Notes under the pieces: model-generated
Databases searched by the model: none
What the model was told of the DNA's origin: nothing
The model's input: only the letters and a program-made list of their open reading frames with translations
Shown: piece by piece, positions 16,097 to 42,568 of the stretch
How the letters are laid out: each line of letters opens with the position of its first letter
Numbering within the stretch: the first letter of the stretch is position 1
Translations under genes and position numbers: made by a program
Assembly: GCA_028282925.1 (NCBI GenBank)
Contig: JANQGV010000182.1
Span: 1 to 52,345, forward strand
Reading direction: 5' to 3'
From: Thermodesulfobacteriota bacterium
GTDB lineage: Bacteria; Desulfobacterota; WTBG01; CAIYCZ01; CAIRTM01
Length of the DNA: 52,345 nucleotides

Positions 16097-16220
16097 CAGG
16101 CTGTTGAAATCGCCCATCTCCTGCGTTGTGCACATTGCTCAACATTGCGACGTACAAGGCGAGTACGCCTCATGTTTCACAAATTCGCACGCCTTGCATA
16201 TGAACGATTTGAACAGCCTG
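16097..16220 (+). repeat. Hairpin-rich intergenic repeat, subtype A copy 1
   Basis: A 124-bp element beginning on the base after the exbD stop. Its ends form a 16-bp inverted repeat with one mismatch (16097-16112 with 16205-16220). Inside are CCCATCT, a CGTAC/GTACG pair (GCGACGTACAAGGCGAGTACG) and CGCCTTGCATATGAAC, motifs shared with the copies at 27809, 28477, 29988 and 35767. It interrupts an otherwise overlapping operon and may form an RNA hairpin between exbD and tonB. Confidence 0.75.
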
Positions 16221-27768: not shown

Positions 27769-27808
27769 CGTATGTTGCAAAGAAACTATTTTTGTATTAA
27801 ATTCTAGA

Positions 27809-27945
27809 AGACTGTCGGAGAACGCCCATCTATCCCGATTATATCGGGATTGCGCTCACCCTTCGTCACTGAGGCGTACAGAAAAAAGCACGCCTCACTC
27901 CTTGGGGTTTCGCGCGCCTTGTATCTGAACATTCTCCAACAGTCT
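27809..27945 (+). repeat. Hairpin-rich intergenic repeat, subtype B copy 1
   Basis: 137 bp bounded by a near-perfect inverted repeat (AGACTGTCGGAGAA against TTCTCCAACAGTCT). It contains a perfect ATCCCGAT/ATCGGGAT hairpin and a GAGGCGT/ACGCCTC hairpin, so the strand can fold as a closing stem with two inner stem-loops. It is about 85-90% identical to copies at 28477 and 29988 by eye. Confidence 0.85.
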
Positions 27946-28003
27946 CCCTGTGCGAGGGTATTCCGATATCCTCTGGATAACATATTTCAAGGGAAGGCAG
28001 AGG

Positions 28004-28474
28004 ATGAAAGATTCAGTGAAAATAGTCGTTGTCTCCGACAGCCACGGCAGCTATGGAAAGCTTGCCGCCATTATACGGCAGGAATTGCCCTTCGACCATC
28101 TCGTTCACTGCGGCGACGGGGCGGACGATCTGGACCAGATAGCCTTGCCGGCAACGGTTGGCACCGTTCGGGTGGCAGGCAATATGGACAGTCGGACTTG
28201 CTACGGTATGGAGCGTATAATTATTACGACCATCGGCGATATGAAGGTCATGGTCGTCCATGGCGACCGGTTCGGGGTTGTACATGACTACCAGGGGCTG
28301 CTGTACAAAGGCATGGAGGAAGCGGCAGATATGGTCTTTTTCGGACATACCCATAAAAAGTATTTACAGAACGACGAGAAGCCGGCTCTGTTTAATCCCG
28401 GTCCGGCAAACAGCGGGGTTTACGGCGTTGTAATGGTAGGAGACTCCCTTGAGTTTTGCCATAAAAAAATTTAG
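28004..28474 (+). CDS. Calcineurin-like metallophosphoesterase, YfcE/MJ0936 type
   Basis: 156 residues from the ATG at 28004 (GGGAAGGCAGAGG before it); a longer frame running from 27950 into the repeat is spurious. The dinuclear-metal motifs are complete: VVSDSHGS (DxH), HCGDGADD (GD), VAGNMD (GN[H/x]D), VVHGDRFG (H-G-D/H) and FFGHTHKK (GHTH). Such enzymes hydrolyse phosphodiesters such as bis-pNPP; the natural substrate is usually unknown. It stands between two copies of the subtype-B repeat, with the stop two bases before the second. Confidence 0.85.
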   Translation: MKDSVKIVVVSDSHGSYGKLAAIIRQELPFDHLVHCGDGADDLDQIALPATVGTVRVAGNMDSRTCYGMERIIITTIGDMKVMVVHGDRFGVVHDYQGLLYKGMEEAADMVFFGHTHKKYLQNDEKPALFNPGPANSGVYGVVMVGDSLEFCHKKI

Positions 28475-28476
28475 GG

Positions 28477-28612
28477 GGCTGCCGGAGAACGCCCATCTAT
28501 CCCGATTATATCGGGATTGCGCTCACCCTTCGTCACTGAGGCGTACAGAAAAAAGTACGTCTCACCCTTCGGGGTTTCACGCGCCTTGTGTCTGAGCATT
28601 CTCCAACGGCCT
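28477..28612 (+). repeat. Hairpin-rich intergenic repeat, subtype B copy 2
   Basis: 136 bp starting two bases after the phosphoesterase stop. Terminal inverted repeat GGCTGCCGGAGAAC against ATTCTCCAACGGCC. Both inner hairpins are kept: ATCCCGAT/ATCGGGAT unchanged, and GAGGCGTAC against GTACGTCTC with one G-U pair, consistent with selection for pairing in RNA. Confidence 0.85.
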
Positions 28613-28648
28613 CTCGTTATGAACAGATTTCAGCAAGGAAACAGCCTT

Positions 28649-29299
28649 ATGGATACACAGGAAGCACTGAAAACCCGCAGGAGCATCCGCGCTTTTACTA
28701 AAGAGGTGCCGGACAGGGAGACTATCCGGGAATGTCTCGAGGCTGCTACCTGGGCTCCCAGTGCCACAAATCAGCAGCCGTGGGAGTTTATTGTTTTGAC
28801 CGGTGTTGAGCTGAAGCAGGTGTGTGATCTTATCGAAGAACGTTTTGCCGAGGACCTTGGCGACATTGATCCCTTCGGCAATCTGCCGGATGTTTGCCGG
28901 GAGCGTCAGCAGGAGATTATGACGACCCTGATGCAGATCGCCCATGAGGAGGGTATTGACGGCAATGAAATTTTTGAAAGAAGCCTTCGCTTTTTTGATG
29001 CCCCGGTGGGTGTATACTTTGTTACCTATAAGCGTAATGACAACCAGTATGCCGTAAGTGTTGCGGCGGCAATTGAAAATTTTCTGCTGGCCGCCCGGGC
29101 CAGGGGACTGGGGACGTGCTGGCTGACGGTTACGGTAGTGTGCCGGGAAGCTTTAAAAAAATATCTGGGATTGCCTGAAGATAAAGAGTTGGCCGGGGGT
29201 GTGGCGCTGGGCTATCCCGACATGACATCGCCGTTTAATACCTTTCCGCGGACCCGCGAGCCGGTGGATGCCTGTACTTTCTGGAAAGGGTTTACATAA
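28649..29299 (+). CDS. Nitroreductase-family flavoprotein
   Basis: 216 residues from the ATG at 28649 (AAGGAA before it). The start at 28517 would read through the repeat and is rejected. N-terminal TRRSIRAFTKEVP and ATWAPSATNQQPWEF are the FMN-binding signatures of the nitroreductase/BluB superfamily, and the C-terminal GTCWLTV ... LALGYP closes the fold. Members reduce nitro groups, quinones or flavins with NAD(P)H; the sequence does not say which. Its neighbours are a phosphoesterase and a split-barrel flavin protein, each separated by repeat copies or short gaps. Confidence 0.88.
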   Translation: MDTQEALKTRRSIRAFTKEVPDRETIRECLEAATWAPSATNQQPWEFIVLTGVELKQVCDLIEERFAEDLGDIDPFGNLPDVCRERQQEIMTTLMQIAHEEGIDGNEIFERSLRFFDAPVGVYFVTYKRNDNQYAVSVAAAIENFLLAARARGLGTCWLTVTVVCREALKKYLGLPEDKELAGGVALGYPDMTSPFNTFPRTREPVDACTFWKGFT

Positions 29300-29357
29300 A
29301 CAGGAGATTATGAGAAGGATACAGAACTAAAAATAGACATGTAACGTGGGAGAAAAC

Positions 29358-29975
29358 ATGGCAAATACACAAAAGAAAAAGAGTCCAGGGAAAGCCGGCA
29401 AGAAGAGTACAACAAGTCAGGCTCAGTTGAAAAAACGGATTTTGCAGTTTGTTACGGAGGCATCTTCTAAAGTGGTGAAAAACGCTAAAGGCGGTGCGCA
29501 AGTGAAACACGGACTGGGGTGTGTTCTGGCAACCGCAAAAAACAACCTGCCCCGGGCCACGCCGGTTGATTTTTTCAGTGACGGGTTGACCCTCTGGATA
29601 GTGGGGGACCCCGGGAAAAAAGTGGTCAACATCAAATCCAATCCCAATGTGTCGGTGGGTATTTATCATCCCTTGCGGCCCGGCGAGTTGAACCGCAGTA
29701 CCCAGATAGTGGGAAAAGCAACCCTGGTCAACCTGAAGGAGAACCGCCGGACTTTTTTGGCCCGCTTGAAGAAGATCGGTCTGTATACTGTTATCGAAAA
29801 AAACGCCCGTCATCAGGCCGAAGCCGAGGGACTTTCTAAAGCGGAAATGGAGCAGGTGCGGCTTAAAATGTTGGGCTGGTTCAACCTGATTAAGATCGAG
29901 CCGGAAGAAATAACCTTTCTGTATATGCATCCTACCAAAGGGTATGATAAAAACATATGGCGTAAAAGACGGTGA
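29358..29975 (+). CDS. Pyridoxamine-phosphate-oxidase-like (split-barrel flavin-binding) protein
   Basis: 205 residues from the ATG at 29358, with GGGAG upstream. A 35-residue Lys/Ser/Gln-rich leader (QKKKSPGKAGKKSTTSQAQ) precedes a split beta-barrel of the PNPOx-like superfamily: GLGCVLATAKNNLPRATPVDFF, LWIVGDPGKKVVNIKSNPNVSV and STQIVGKATLVN. These bind FMN, heme or F420 and have diverse roles. A Lys-rich tail of this kind is unusual and might bind nucleic acid or membrane. The stop is 12 bases before another repeat copy. Confidence 0.8.
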   Translation: MANTQKKKSPGKAGKKSTTSQAQLKKRILQFVTEASSKVVKNAKGGAQVKHGLGCVLATAKNNLPRATPVDFFSDGLTLWIVGDPGKKVVNIKSNPNVSVGIYHPLRPGELNRSTQIVGKATLVNLKENRRTFLARLKKIGLYTVIEKNARHQAEAEGLSKAEMEQVRLKMLGWFNLIKIEPEEITFLYMHPTKGYDKNIWRKRR

Positions 29976-29987
29976 AAATGATTTAAG

Positions 29988-30122
29988 AGACCGCCGGAGA
30001 ATATCCATCTATCCCGATTATATCGGGATTGCGCTCACCCATCGTCACTGCGGCGTACAACTGAGTACGCCTTATTCCTCAGGCTTTCGCGCGCCTTGTA
30101 TCTGAGCATTCTCCAACGGTCT
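29988..30122 (+). repeat. Hairpin-rich intergenic repeat, subtype B copy 3
   Basis: 135 bp with closing stem AGACCGCCGGAGAA against TTCTCCAACGGTCT. Inner hairpins: ATCCCGAT/ATCGGGAT again, and a perfect GGCGTAC/GTACGCC pair. The closing stem differs in sequence from the other copies but still pairs. Confidence 0.85.
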
Positions 30123-30258
30123 TTTGCTGTACGTGTGGTTTAGAGTAGTTGATTACTTGAGAGTGTTTATACCCTTATACATCAGGGGTATGTGGTCTAA
30201 AAGCTTTCAGCCGTTGGGGGGGGTGGGTGGCACACCTTCAATCTGTATTTTAATAATG

Positions 30259-33200
30259 CTATTTGCCGAAGTGTTTCGATCTTGTTCGGTGTACAAACAG
30301 AACCGTCATTGCCAGGCTGATTGCCAGAAGGGCAAAGGCTGTATACAGCGGTCCAAGCTGTAATGCCAGCCAGCCGGCACCAACCAGGGGCAGCAGGCTC
30401 CAGCGTACGGCACAGCGCAGGACGGGGCTGCCTGCAATCGCTGCGGCGATGGGTGGGGACACCCGATAGTACAACGATACGAACGACCTTCCGGCTGCAT
30501 TCCTGAGCAGGAACCGGTCACGAAATGCGCGCAGAACCATAACATGGGGCTCCATTTTCGACCCATAAGCGGCGGTGGCTATGAAACAGTGGTCGGTGCC
30601 GTTGTTGCCGGTGGAAACGGCCACCACCCCTCCGGCATCATAAATCTGTATTTCAACTCCTTCGGACGAATCGGTGGCTACCTCCTGGCGCGACCCGGGC
30701 ACCATCCAGTCTTCGCCGCCGGGCAGCACGTTGCCGTCGGCATCACAGACCTGAACCCACGCAGTGCCGTTGTCACGATAGACAACCAGATCTTCAGAAC
30801 TTGAATGCTCGGGACCGTTGACCTGGACGGTAACCGGTGTGGTATAGCGTGTCCGGGGCTGGATGTTGACAGGCTCTCCGGCATCATCGATTTCAGTCTC
30901 GCTGTTCAGCAAGGGAAGATATCCTTTGGTGCGGACCGCCCGGGTGTGCCTGAAAGGTGTCAAACCCTCCGGCGGGCCGAATACCGGCGTAAAGGGCTCC
31001 TCATCGTTATAATAGATATAGGCACCCTGGCCGATTCCTCTGGAAATATAGATCCCGGCATTGTAGCGGCTGTCAGCCAGGTTGTCGGGTTCCAGCGGAT
31101 CTCCCTGGGGCAGATCGCATTGGACGTCAAAGGGATTCATTGTCGGTGTCAGGTCGTCCTCCTCGCAGTCGTCATCCATGGGATTCATGGTTTCCATCAT
31201 CTTGCATTCAGGTTCCATGGGATTTAACGTCCAGGGGATATCCTCCACGCAGGCACTATCCATGGGGTTCATGGTTTCGCGTATATCATCTTCGCAGCGA
31301 TAGTCCATGGGGTTAAATGTTTCCGTTAATTCGCAGCGTTCATCCATGGGGTTCATGGTGAGAGTCATTTCGTCTTCACACACCGGTTCCATGGGATTCA
31401 TGGTAGGCGGTATGTCCTGTTCGCAACGATAGTCCATGGGATTGATGGTGGGCGTAATATCGTCACCGCACTCCCTGTCCATGGGGTTGAAGGTGAACGG
31501 CAGCTCGCAGAAACGGTCGGTGGGATTAAACGTGGGCAAAAATTCGCATTTCTCATCAAGCGGGTCCATGGTTTCGGGTAGTTCACACAGCTCATCCAGG
31601 GGATCTATCGTATCAATCAGCTCGCAGGTGGGGTCGCCGGGGTCGACGGTCTCCTTGAGCCCGCAGGTGATGTCGGTCGGATCCATGGTGGGTGGTATGT
31701 CGCAATTTTGGTCTGCAGGGTCCATAGTGTAGGGGAGCGCCCCGCCGCAGTTACTGTCCATGGGGTTCATTGTGGGCTCAAAGGTACAATTTGTGTCCAT
31801 GGGGTTCATTGTGGGCTCGAACTCGCAGGTATAATCCATGGGGTTCAGTGTAATAAGAATAACGTCTCCGCAGTCTTCTTCCATGGGGTTGAATGTGGGT
31901 TGTATGCTGTTTTCACACGCTTTATCCATGGGATTGAAGGTGGACTGTATATTGTCGTCGCACTCTTGTTCCATGGGATTAAAGGTGACGGCAATGGTAT
32001 CACAACGACCGTCCATGGGATTGAGGGTGGGCTGGACGGTATCGTCACATGCCGGTTCCATGGGGTTCATGGTTTCCCCGAATTCACAGGCCTGGTCCAT
32101 GGGGTTGAGCGTCGGTTGAATGTCTTCTTCACAGGCTACATCCATGGGGTTGAGTGTCGGCGGTATCTCTTCGGCGCAGTTACTATCCATGGGGTTCATC
32201 GTGGGTGGAATGTCTTCGGCGCAGGATTGATCCATGGGATTCAGTGTGGGCCTGATGTCGTCGGAGCACATGTTATCCATGGGGTTCAGGGTCAACGGTA
32301 TTTCATCGGAGCACCCTTGATCCATGGGGTTCAGGGTTGGAGAAATTGTCCCGCTACAGCGCTCATCCATGGGATTCATGGTGGGTTCCAACTCACAGTT
32401 CGGGTCCATGGGATTCATGGTCGGTTGAATACTGCAGGCCGGGTCAATGGGGTTCATTGTGGGGAAAATGTTATCGGTACAGTTGGTATTTACCGGGTCC
32501 AGGGTTTCCTCGATATATTTATGGCAACGGTCATCTATTGGATCGAGGGTCGATGCAATTTCACAGTTTGTATCCAGGGGATTAAACGTGATTTCAAAGT
32601 TGTCTGCACAGGTATCTTCTGCCGGATTCAGAGTGGGTTCAATTTGTCCGCAAATCGGATCAGCAGGGTTCAGGGTCGGTTCGCCGCCACATTCCGGAAT
32701 TGATGCATCCATGGTTTCGTTACTGTCGCAGATGGGGTCGCTGGGATTATAGCAGGTGTCGCCTGGATCGCAGGGATCGCAGCCGGCGTCTCCGCCGCAG
32801 ATAGGATCGTCAGGGTTATAGCATGGCCCAGTGGGATTACAGGGGTCACAGTTGCCGCAGATAGGATCGTCGGGGTTGTAGCAGGTGTCGCCTGGATCGC
32901 AGGGGTTGCAGCCGGCGTCTCCGCCGCAGATAGGATCGTCAGGGTTATAGCAGGGTCCGTTTGGATCGCAGGGGTCACAGTTGCCGCAGATAGGATCGTC
33001 GGGATTATAGCAGGTACCGTTTGGGTCGCAAGGGTCACAGTCGGCGGCCCCACCGCAGATAGGATCGTCAGGGTTATAACACGTCCCGTTGGGATCGCAG
33101 GGATCACAGTTGCCGCTGCATGCGGGATCAACAGGGTTGTAGCAGGTGCCGCCTGGGTCGCAGGGGTCGCATCCGGCAGCCCCGCCGCAGATAGGGTCAT

Positions 33201-33675
33201 CAGGGTTATAGCACGTCCCGTTGGGATCGCAGGGATCACAGTTGCCGCTGCATGCGGGGTCATTGGGGTCGTAGCAGGTACCGTTTGGGTCGCAAGGGTC
33301 GCATCCGGCGGCCCCGCCGCAGATAGGGTCATCAGGGTTATAGCACGTCCCGTTTGGGTTACAGGGATCACAGTTGCCGCTGCATGCGGGGTCATTGGGG
33401 TCGTAGCAGGTGCCGCCTGGGTCACAGGGGTCGCACCCGGCCCCGCCGCAGGCCGCGTCATTGGGATCTGATGTTTCCTGCTGGGATTGAATGTTGTAGC
33501 CCAGGGGGATGATGGCGGCTTTTCCGGTCATGCGGGCAATGGAACGTTCCAGGGCGGCTTTGAAAATGGGAGATTTTTTTACATCGTGTTTTCCGGCACG
33601 GGCGGTGTAAGGGCAAAGTGTCTGTCCGACCAGTAGTAACAGAATGACAATTACAGGGAGCTTTCGGGAGCGCAC
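30259..33675 (-). CDS. Giant Cys-rich tandem-repeat protein with CFI-box C-terminus
   Basis: 1138 residues. Signal peptide ([20 protein letters not shown]). Residues 81-319: eleven 20-23-residue units of the form [20 protein letters not shown] with four cysteines each. Residues 335-853: about 37 shorter units of 13-15 residues centred on N-P-M-D-x-x-C with one cysteine each ([32 protein letters not shown]). Both unit types share the core [N/D]-P-x-D-x-x-C, so one probably gave rise to the other. A beta-rich region (854-1025) follows, then [11 protein letters not shown] (~1030-1040) ... [12 protein letters not shown] ... [11 protein letters not shown], and a final membrane helix with a basic end ([21 protein letters not shown]), the CFI-box C-terminal arrangement. 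I infer a surface-anchored stalk, cross-linked by disulfides or binding metal. Function unknown. Confidence 0.85.
31117..32673 (-). repeat. Coding tandem repeat array B (about 37 NPxDxxC units, 39-45 bp each)
   Basis: Direct repeats inside the 1138-residue gene. Most contain the CCATGG-type core that encodes P-M-D. Units alternate between about 39 and 45 bp. The array produces long open frames on the opposite strand (31708-32703), which are shadows. Confidence 0.85.
32719..33435 (-). repeat. Coding tandem repeat array A (11 [18 protein letters not shown] units, 60-69 bp each)
   Basis: Eleven nearly identical direct repeats; neighbouring units differ at few bases, for example those around 33100-33250, suggesting recent unequal crossing-over or gene conversion. 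Copy number is likely to vary between strains. Confidence 0.88.
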
Positions 33676-35766: not shown

Positions 35767-35891
35767 GAGACTGATGGAAAACATCCATCTGCTGCGTTAT
35801 GCGAAATATTCGGCATTGCGACGTACAACCGAGTACGCCTCATGCCTCATGATTTCGCAGGCCTTGCATCTGAACATTTTCCCCCATTCTC
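35767..35891 (+). repeat. Hairpin-rich intergenic repeat, subtype A copy 2
   Basis: 125 bp starting on the base after the C45-peptidase stop. The ends pair (GAGACTGATGGAAAA against TTTTCCCCCATTCTC, with mismatches). Inner text CATCCATCTGCTGCG, GCGACGTACAACCGAGTACGCCTCA and GCCTTGCATCTGAACAT matches the element at 16097. It lacks the ATCCCGAT hairpin of subtype B. Confidence 0.75.
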
Positions 35892-42372: not shown

Positions 42373-42568
42373 CTAGAGCACATTCCACAATACTATAGCC
42401 ATGGGGAATAATAGCACAGGCTGATACGGTTAGATTGCCTGCGGCCATGTGCTCGCAGGAAAAGGGAGATACAAAAGAGAAATCATCGCTCGCACCGCCG
42501 CGGCTGCTCTCACCGTATCAGCCTGTGCTATCTATTTAAGGGCTACAGAAAAAAGAAAGATGCTCTAG
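42373..42568. mobile_element. MITE-like element with perfect inverted repeats
   Basis: A 196-bp unit with matching ends CTAGAGCA (42373-42380) and TGCTCTAG (42561-42568), and an inner perfect 20-bp inverted repeat (42411-42430 with 42512-42531). It also has TAGCC pairing and a central CCTGCG/CGCAGG hairpin. No coding capacity and no transposase nearby. The design is that of a miniature inverted-repeat element or a long structured RNA. Confidence 0.6.

Follow-up and report, generated by a model that had tools for sequence, protein, structure and literature searches.

A probable IS5-type MITE family with copies behind stop codons in a Thermodesulfobacteriota genome

Repeats and genes in the window

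The window, a stretch of 52,345 nt from a Thermodesulfobacteriota bacterium (contig JANQGV010000182.1, assembly GCA_028282925.1), contains five related repeats on its forward strand, each consisting of one long imperfect hairpin: three of ~140 nt with an extra small hairpin and two shorter ones without it. The repeats and the genes next to them are listed below; the coordinates of the copies stop where the inner closing stem ends, and the outer parts of copy 1 are given in addition.

16097–16220, + strand: module-less copy with ends CAGGCTGTTGAAATC ... GATTTGAACAGCCTG, abutting the TAG stop (16096) of an ExbD gene
27804–27807, + strand: CTAG, left 4-bp target duplication of copy 1, assigned from the sequence and from the NTAR flanks and 4-bp duplications of relatives
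27808–27972, + strand: copy 1 of the probable MITE, the sole window copy with a recognizable outer 3′ inverted repeat
27808–27946, + strand: inner long hairpin of copy 1, AAGACTGTCGGAGAA ... TTCTCCAACAGTCTC
27832–27850, + strand: small hairpin module of copy 1, ATCCCGATTATATCGGGAT, an extra that is missing from most genomic copies
27961–27972, + strand: TTCCGATATCCT, the outer terminal inverted repeat on the 3′ side of copy 1, in degenerate form; intact copies end in TTCCGACAAACTCC followed by TAG
27973–27976, + strand: CTGG after the outer repeat of copy 1, which is CTAG with one base changed
28004–28474, + strand: YfcE-like phosphodiesterase gene, whose TAG stop abuts copy 2
28475–28613, + strand: copy 2 of the probable MITE, inner hairpin; its first base directly follows the stop codon and its 3′ tail is decayed
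28499–28517, + strand: small hairpin module of copy 2
28619–29299, + strand: nitroreductase-family gene, ATG with nearby AAGGA at 28649
29346–29975, + strand: gene for a PPOX-class (pyridoxamine phosphate oxidase-like) flavoprotein, TGA stop
29983–29986, + strand: TTAA, target-like flank of copy 3, from the sequence
29987–30123, + strand: copy 3 of the probable MITE, inner hairpin; 3′ tail decayed
30011–30029, + strand: small hairpin module of copy 3
35767–35891, + strand: module-less copy abutting the TAG stop (35766) of a C45 acyltransferase-like gene

The original prediction described copies 1 to 3 as repeats starting at 27809, 28477 and 29988; the repeats are real and the starts were off by 1–2 nt, whereas the outer 3′ inverted repeat and the target duplication had been overlooked. 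Within the window a target duplication is found only at copy 1, as CTAG/CTGG, and the ends of the copy at 16097 are the nearest to intact IS5 ends. It had also been noticed that copies closely following a gene start 0–12 nt after its stop codon, and this holds: the copies at 16097, 28475 and 35767 begin directly after a TAG, and copy 3 begins 11 nt past the TGA of the PPOX gene. Copy 1 lies 102 nt downstream of a cytochrome gene. The flavin and phosphodiesterase genes beside the repeats are incidental, because other stop-adjacent copies follow genes for ALAD, TilS, polyprenyl synthetase, GATase and ExbD.

At 28635–28651, inside the decayed 3′ tail of copy 2, lie the ATG of the nitroreductase gene and what is probably its ribosome-binding site (AAGGA), so this copy may have contributed part of the leader of that gene.

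Outer ends and target duplications

In the genome of the window, GAGGCTGTCGGAGAA preceded by TAG or YTAR marks the left boundary of the element. Most copies there lack an outer 3′ repeat; a minority extend beyond the inner stem to ...GGTATTCCGACAAACTCC followed by TAG, where the 5′ end recurs in inverted form as an outer repeat. Copies in Desulfobacterota MAGs have the form CTAA-CAGGCTGTTGAAAAA ... TTTTTCAACACCCTG-CTAA or CTAG-GAGGCTGTCGGA ... TCCGACAGGCTC-CTAG, and the terminal inverted repeats are CAGGCTGTTGAAAAA / TTTTTCAAYARCCTG in relatives and GAGGCTGTCGGA / TCCGACARNCTC in the genome of the window. In this genome, too, the outer ends pair with each other: the pattern YTARGAG..TGTCGGA has 86 matches and the reversed pattern 42, and the former was found at both ends of single elements.

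The element was present in all eight relatives searched (from the same family, order or class), with 12–40 scored matches in each. Two genomes of relatives supplied sets of young copies, at 90–94% and 90–99% identity; the sets comprise 30 and 27 copies. Complete young copies are nearly always 151–152 bp long and have 15-bp terminal inverted repeats (CAGGCTGTTGAAAAA). Exact 4-bp target duplications, mostly of TTAG, ATAG, CTAG or CTAA, flank 26 of the 57 (15/30 plus 11/27), and the left flank is NTAR in 41 of 57, mostly TTAG, CTAG, CTAA and ATAG, as in insertions at a YTAR target. These comparisons show an intact element of ~151–175 bp, bounded by terminal inverted repeats of 12–15 bp, which inserts at NTAR sites (for the most part YTAR) and duplicates these 4 bp. 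The family spans several orders of Desulfobacterota, and its young and old copies could be used to separate insertion preference from selection.

The element is short, non-coding and multicopy, as a MITE should be: it measures 151–175 bp, contains no gene, and the genome-wide copy count suggested together with the original prediction gave 145 non-overlapping matches in a profile search of 1.79 Mb of the 5.6-Mb genome, a sample in which some contigs had been picked for containing copies, so that its density cannot be taken as an unbiased estimate of copy number. A first-look search of the same genome had yielded 41 scored matches out of 248 candidates. A few hundred copies is a fair estimate for the entire genome.

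The parent insertion sequence

Eight loci with a DDE_Tnp_1 domain were found in the genome of the window, one of which is a complete IS of ~1.34 kb (L173:805–2154, contig C197) with the structure CTAG-CAGGCTGTTGAAAAA ... TTTTTCAACAGCCTG-CTAG. Its product is a 357-aa transposase with the Pfam domains DUF772 and DDE_Tnp_1, assigned to the IS5 family by NCBIfam NF033581 (263.5 bits, cut-off 140), and its ends and target match those of the MITE subtype with CAGGCTGTTGAAAAA ends. This IS was reached only through its transposase family; a blind search of the fetched DNA for inverted-repeat pairs around long ORFs retrieved no IS. No IS or transposase with exact GAGGCTGTCGGA ends was found, and several relatives with very young copies have no close homologue of the transposase of L173; in one relative that has a homologue, TTTAG-CAGGCTGCTGAAAAA lies beside it. 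The pairing of MITE and transposase is for these reasons drawn from the ends and the target, and for the relatives without a homologue it must be assumed that another transposase of the group was active or that one was lost or left unassembled.

The window repeats therefore correspond, very probably, to an IS5-type MITE family whose copies in the window are partly decayed. As in IS5-family IS with a YTAR target and the MITEs derived from them, the terminal inverted repeats are identical to those of a full IS in the genome and 4 bp of the form NTAR are duplicated; the window's element differs from an IS of this family in having no transposase gene, a structured hairpin interior and a polarity with respect to stop codons. 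We suppose that a transposase of the L173 type would act in trans on the MITE ends. The outer ends, the target duplications and the parental IS remove the repeats as a candidate new structured RNA: they are not a new RNA class, and IS5-type MITEs are a known kind of element of which this is a new family. Searches of Rfam at gathering and permissive thresholds matched the repeats to no family, the element had no match in plasmid and phage collections, and a literature search found no description of this repeat family.

ERIC and BOX are palindromic, MITE-like intergenic repeats with modular inserts; they differ from the window's element in ends, target and hosts, and are likened to it by description only. 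The same applies to two kinds of repeat from related anaerobes. One is Chunjie, an intergenic MITE of 178–235 bp, of which Geobacter uraniireducens has tens of copies besides partial, decayed ones (PMC10969869). The other comprises families of palindromic intergenic repeats in Geobacter and Pelobacter genomes, described as ‘multicopy nucleotide sequences’, one class reportedly resembling multicopy sequences in many genomes (PMC2700814, PMC2996986, PMC3543383). The REPs of E. coli (20–40 nt, linked to Y1 RAYT transposases and devoid of target duplications) share with the window's element their proximity to stop codons, many copies lying within 15 nt of a stop and stalling ribosomes there (PMC12306157).

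Placement at stop codons

We examined placement for the 106 copies that have both a readable 5′ end and a gene upstream, with genes called by a simple in-house codon-score caller. A same-strand stop codon was found at −2 to 12 nt from the start of 61 copies (58%), and at −2 to 1 nt for 37 of these, so that the link with stop codons proposed from the window extends genome-wide, against some 5–14% for matched target sites. In the matched null, built with gene-sparing sites, 4.5% of NTAR and 13% of CTAG sites lie exactly at a same-strand stop, and 5.8% and 13.6%, respectively, lie 0–12 nt from one. Neither placement nor orientation is random: the 61 sense copies at stops compare with ~5 antisense ones, a generous count of those with the 3′ end by a convergent stop. 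The puzzle is clean and countable, with sense copies fused to stops in a ratio of ~12 to 1. Copies away from stops have no orientation bias (25 sense and 20 antisense), and those between divergent genes are scarce (7/103).

The stops at the 37 abutting copies are TAG in 28 cases, TAA in 6 and TGA in 3, while the background is 611 TAA, 365 TGA (28% expected) and 339 TAG. TAA and TAG can lie within NTAR targets, which accounts for insertion at stops, for the enrichment of TAG and for the shortage of TGA. The target accounts for the stop spectrum and for part of the enrichment; it does not account for the full excess or for the sense polarity.

A different origin of the adjacency, in which the element creates the stop by truncating a gene, was rejected. 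Random insertion would give an in-frame stop at the junction in one case out of three, and many ORFs running into the element would be expected; few do so, and C-terminal domains are complete. Genes abutted by a copy show no sign of truncation, since Pfam domains are complete in most of those with a domain near the C-terminus; for example, ALAD, GATase_5, TilS_C, ExbD, SLBB_2 and OmpA domains extend to, or almost to, the ends of their models.

Because TAA and TAG stops lie inside the preferred target, insertion there would restore the stop codon and be harmless, and insertions into gene bodies or promoters would presumably be purged. For the residual excess and the sense polarity we lean, with low confidence, towards selective retention over targeted insertion. 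Adjacency and polarity are weaker among the young copies of relatives (17/57, or 30%, sense and 7/57 antisense), as expected under retention; against it, stop adjacency in the genome of the window has no age trend and does not rise with divergence, and hairpin pairing is equal at stop-adjacent and other copies.

Hairpin structure and a possible host role

A single copy folds better than all of 200 shuffled sequences on either strand (z = −4.6 sense, −5.8 antisense). In an alignment of 39 insert-free copies, two-sided changes were found at 25 of the 32 helix pairs, with 119 two-sided change cells compared to 31.9 in shuffles and 19–33 in slid controls, in agreement with the initial view that the stems change in sequence and continue to pair. 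Entire helix segments switch together, e.g., ATTGT/ACAAT in place of CCTTT/AAAGG, or CTCGTATCAT/ATGATAACGAG, and the covariation is in part the shared descent of subfamilies; this is insufficient to explain it, because the slid controls retain the relatedness and yet fall far short. Two adjacent pairs, G-C and then T.G (alignment columns 31–32 with 98–99), are invariant in all 39 copies and adjoin the conserved motifs CGTT and GCCTTG.

Mismatches on the sense strand are A.C in 70 cases and G.U in 17, at 22 and 11 pair positions, respectively, and an A.C on the sense strand is a G.U on the antisense strand. This is the opposite of the pattern expected from selection on a sense transcript, and the G-U pair singled out in the original prediction as a sign of preserved pairing is not general. 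The structure is conserved, but there is no sign that the sense transcript is what was selected. Selection on structure, as first proposed, consequently stands for a part of a mobile element and has no support as a functional RNA of the neighboring genes; the hairpin would be maintained by the needs of the element lineage and not by individual host genes. With a repeat that is a transposon, covariation alone is no warrant for an RNA function in the host.

It is nevertheless conceivable, if unlikely, that the element is a MITE by origin that the host has adopted as a 3′-UTR element, its folded sense transcript protecting the mRNA 3′ end, slowing terminating ribosomes or ending transcription. 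Such a role would agree with the polarity at stops and its absence elsewhere, with the covariation of the hairpin, with the higher stop adjacency in the genome of the window than among young copies of relatives, and with the ribosome stalling at E. coli REPs. The tests for it were negative or weak: besides the excess of A.C over G.U, pairing is no better at stops (86.3% in 24 stop-adjacent copies vs. 84.8% and 83.3% in 8 and 6 copies elsewhere), a T-run follows the stem in 14 of 56 copies vs. 17% of control stretches, an excess that is not clear, and no site resembling an intrinsic terminator ends at the closing stem. The lack of an Rfam match also argues against it, as does the absence of a functional class shared by the upstream genes. 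That the whole transposon family has turned into a portable 3′-UTR, in which sense copies behind stops persist through an action of the folded transcript on translation termination or on the 3′ ends of mRNAs, we consider rather improbable; if true, it would amount to a common transposon-borne tail on hundreds of genes.

It seems distinctly improbable that the transposition complex is steered to the ends of genes with a set orientation, guided for instance by the termination of transcription or of translation. Adjacency that remains constant across copy-score bins (53–71% in every bin) is what such targeting predicts, as are the copies within 12 nt of a stop that do not overlap it, but the polarity is weak among the young copies of relatives, and the target is near-palindromic, which leaves polarity without an obvious source. 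Mobilization as REP/REPIN elements by a Y1 (RAYT) transposase is very improbable: the genome contains 11 Y1_Tnp matches, the element is palindromic and its left flank is often GTAG or TTAG, but only one of ten Y1 loci (~3 kb each) contains a copy, about what its density predicts, and the combination of terminal inverted repeats with duplicated 4-bp targets is characteristic of transposition by DDE enzymes and not by Y1 enzymes; neither the association with Y1 genes nor the lack of a target duplication typical of REPs was found. Integron-type attC sites with gene cassettes would explain the order element-gene-element-genes-element in a single orientation across 27808–30123 and the position right behind stop codons, but we give them practically no credence, since intact relatives have long inverted repeats, 4-bp duplications and, by inspection, no attC-like core at their ends, and copies are dispersed genome-wide in both orientations away from stops.

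Inserts and other repeats

The apical loop of some copies of the MITE holds one of two large inserts, of ~112 or ~185 nt. Representative loci are:

L108:16932–17112, L052:1797–1967 and L217:4300–4480: free-standing MITE of ~185 nt, ends CCCCAAATCAA.. and ..TTGATTTGGGG, flanks CTAG/CTAG
L074:18208–18323, L072:10454–10567 and L127:11027–11139: multi-hairpin insert of 112 nt (CAACAGGAAAAA..TTTTTCCTGTTG and further hairpins)

The 185-nt insert is a second MITE nested inside the first, because it also occurs alone elsewhere, bounded by inverted repeats and NTAR flanks of its own. Its single fixed position within the window's element makes it seem that the composite copies multiplied as one unit. 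The 112-nt insert was found solely within the window's element, in nine composite copies.

The window contains, in addition, a separate palindromic element of 121 bp (42411–42531) with complementary 20-bp ends, ATAGCACAGGCTGATACGGT / ACCGTATCAGCCTGTGCTAT, probably another MITE. A minus-strand ORF of 1138 aa (30259–33675) comprises many tandem repeats of 39–45 bp (+-strand sequence TCCATGGGATTCATGGT) and, at 32735–33449, another block with repeats of 129–132 bp.
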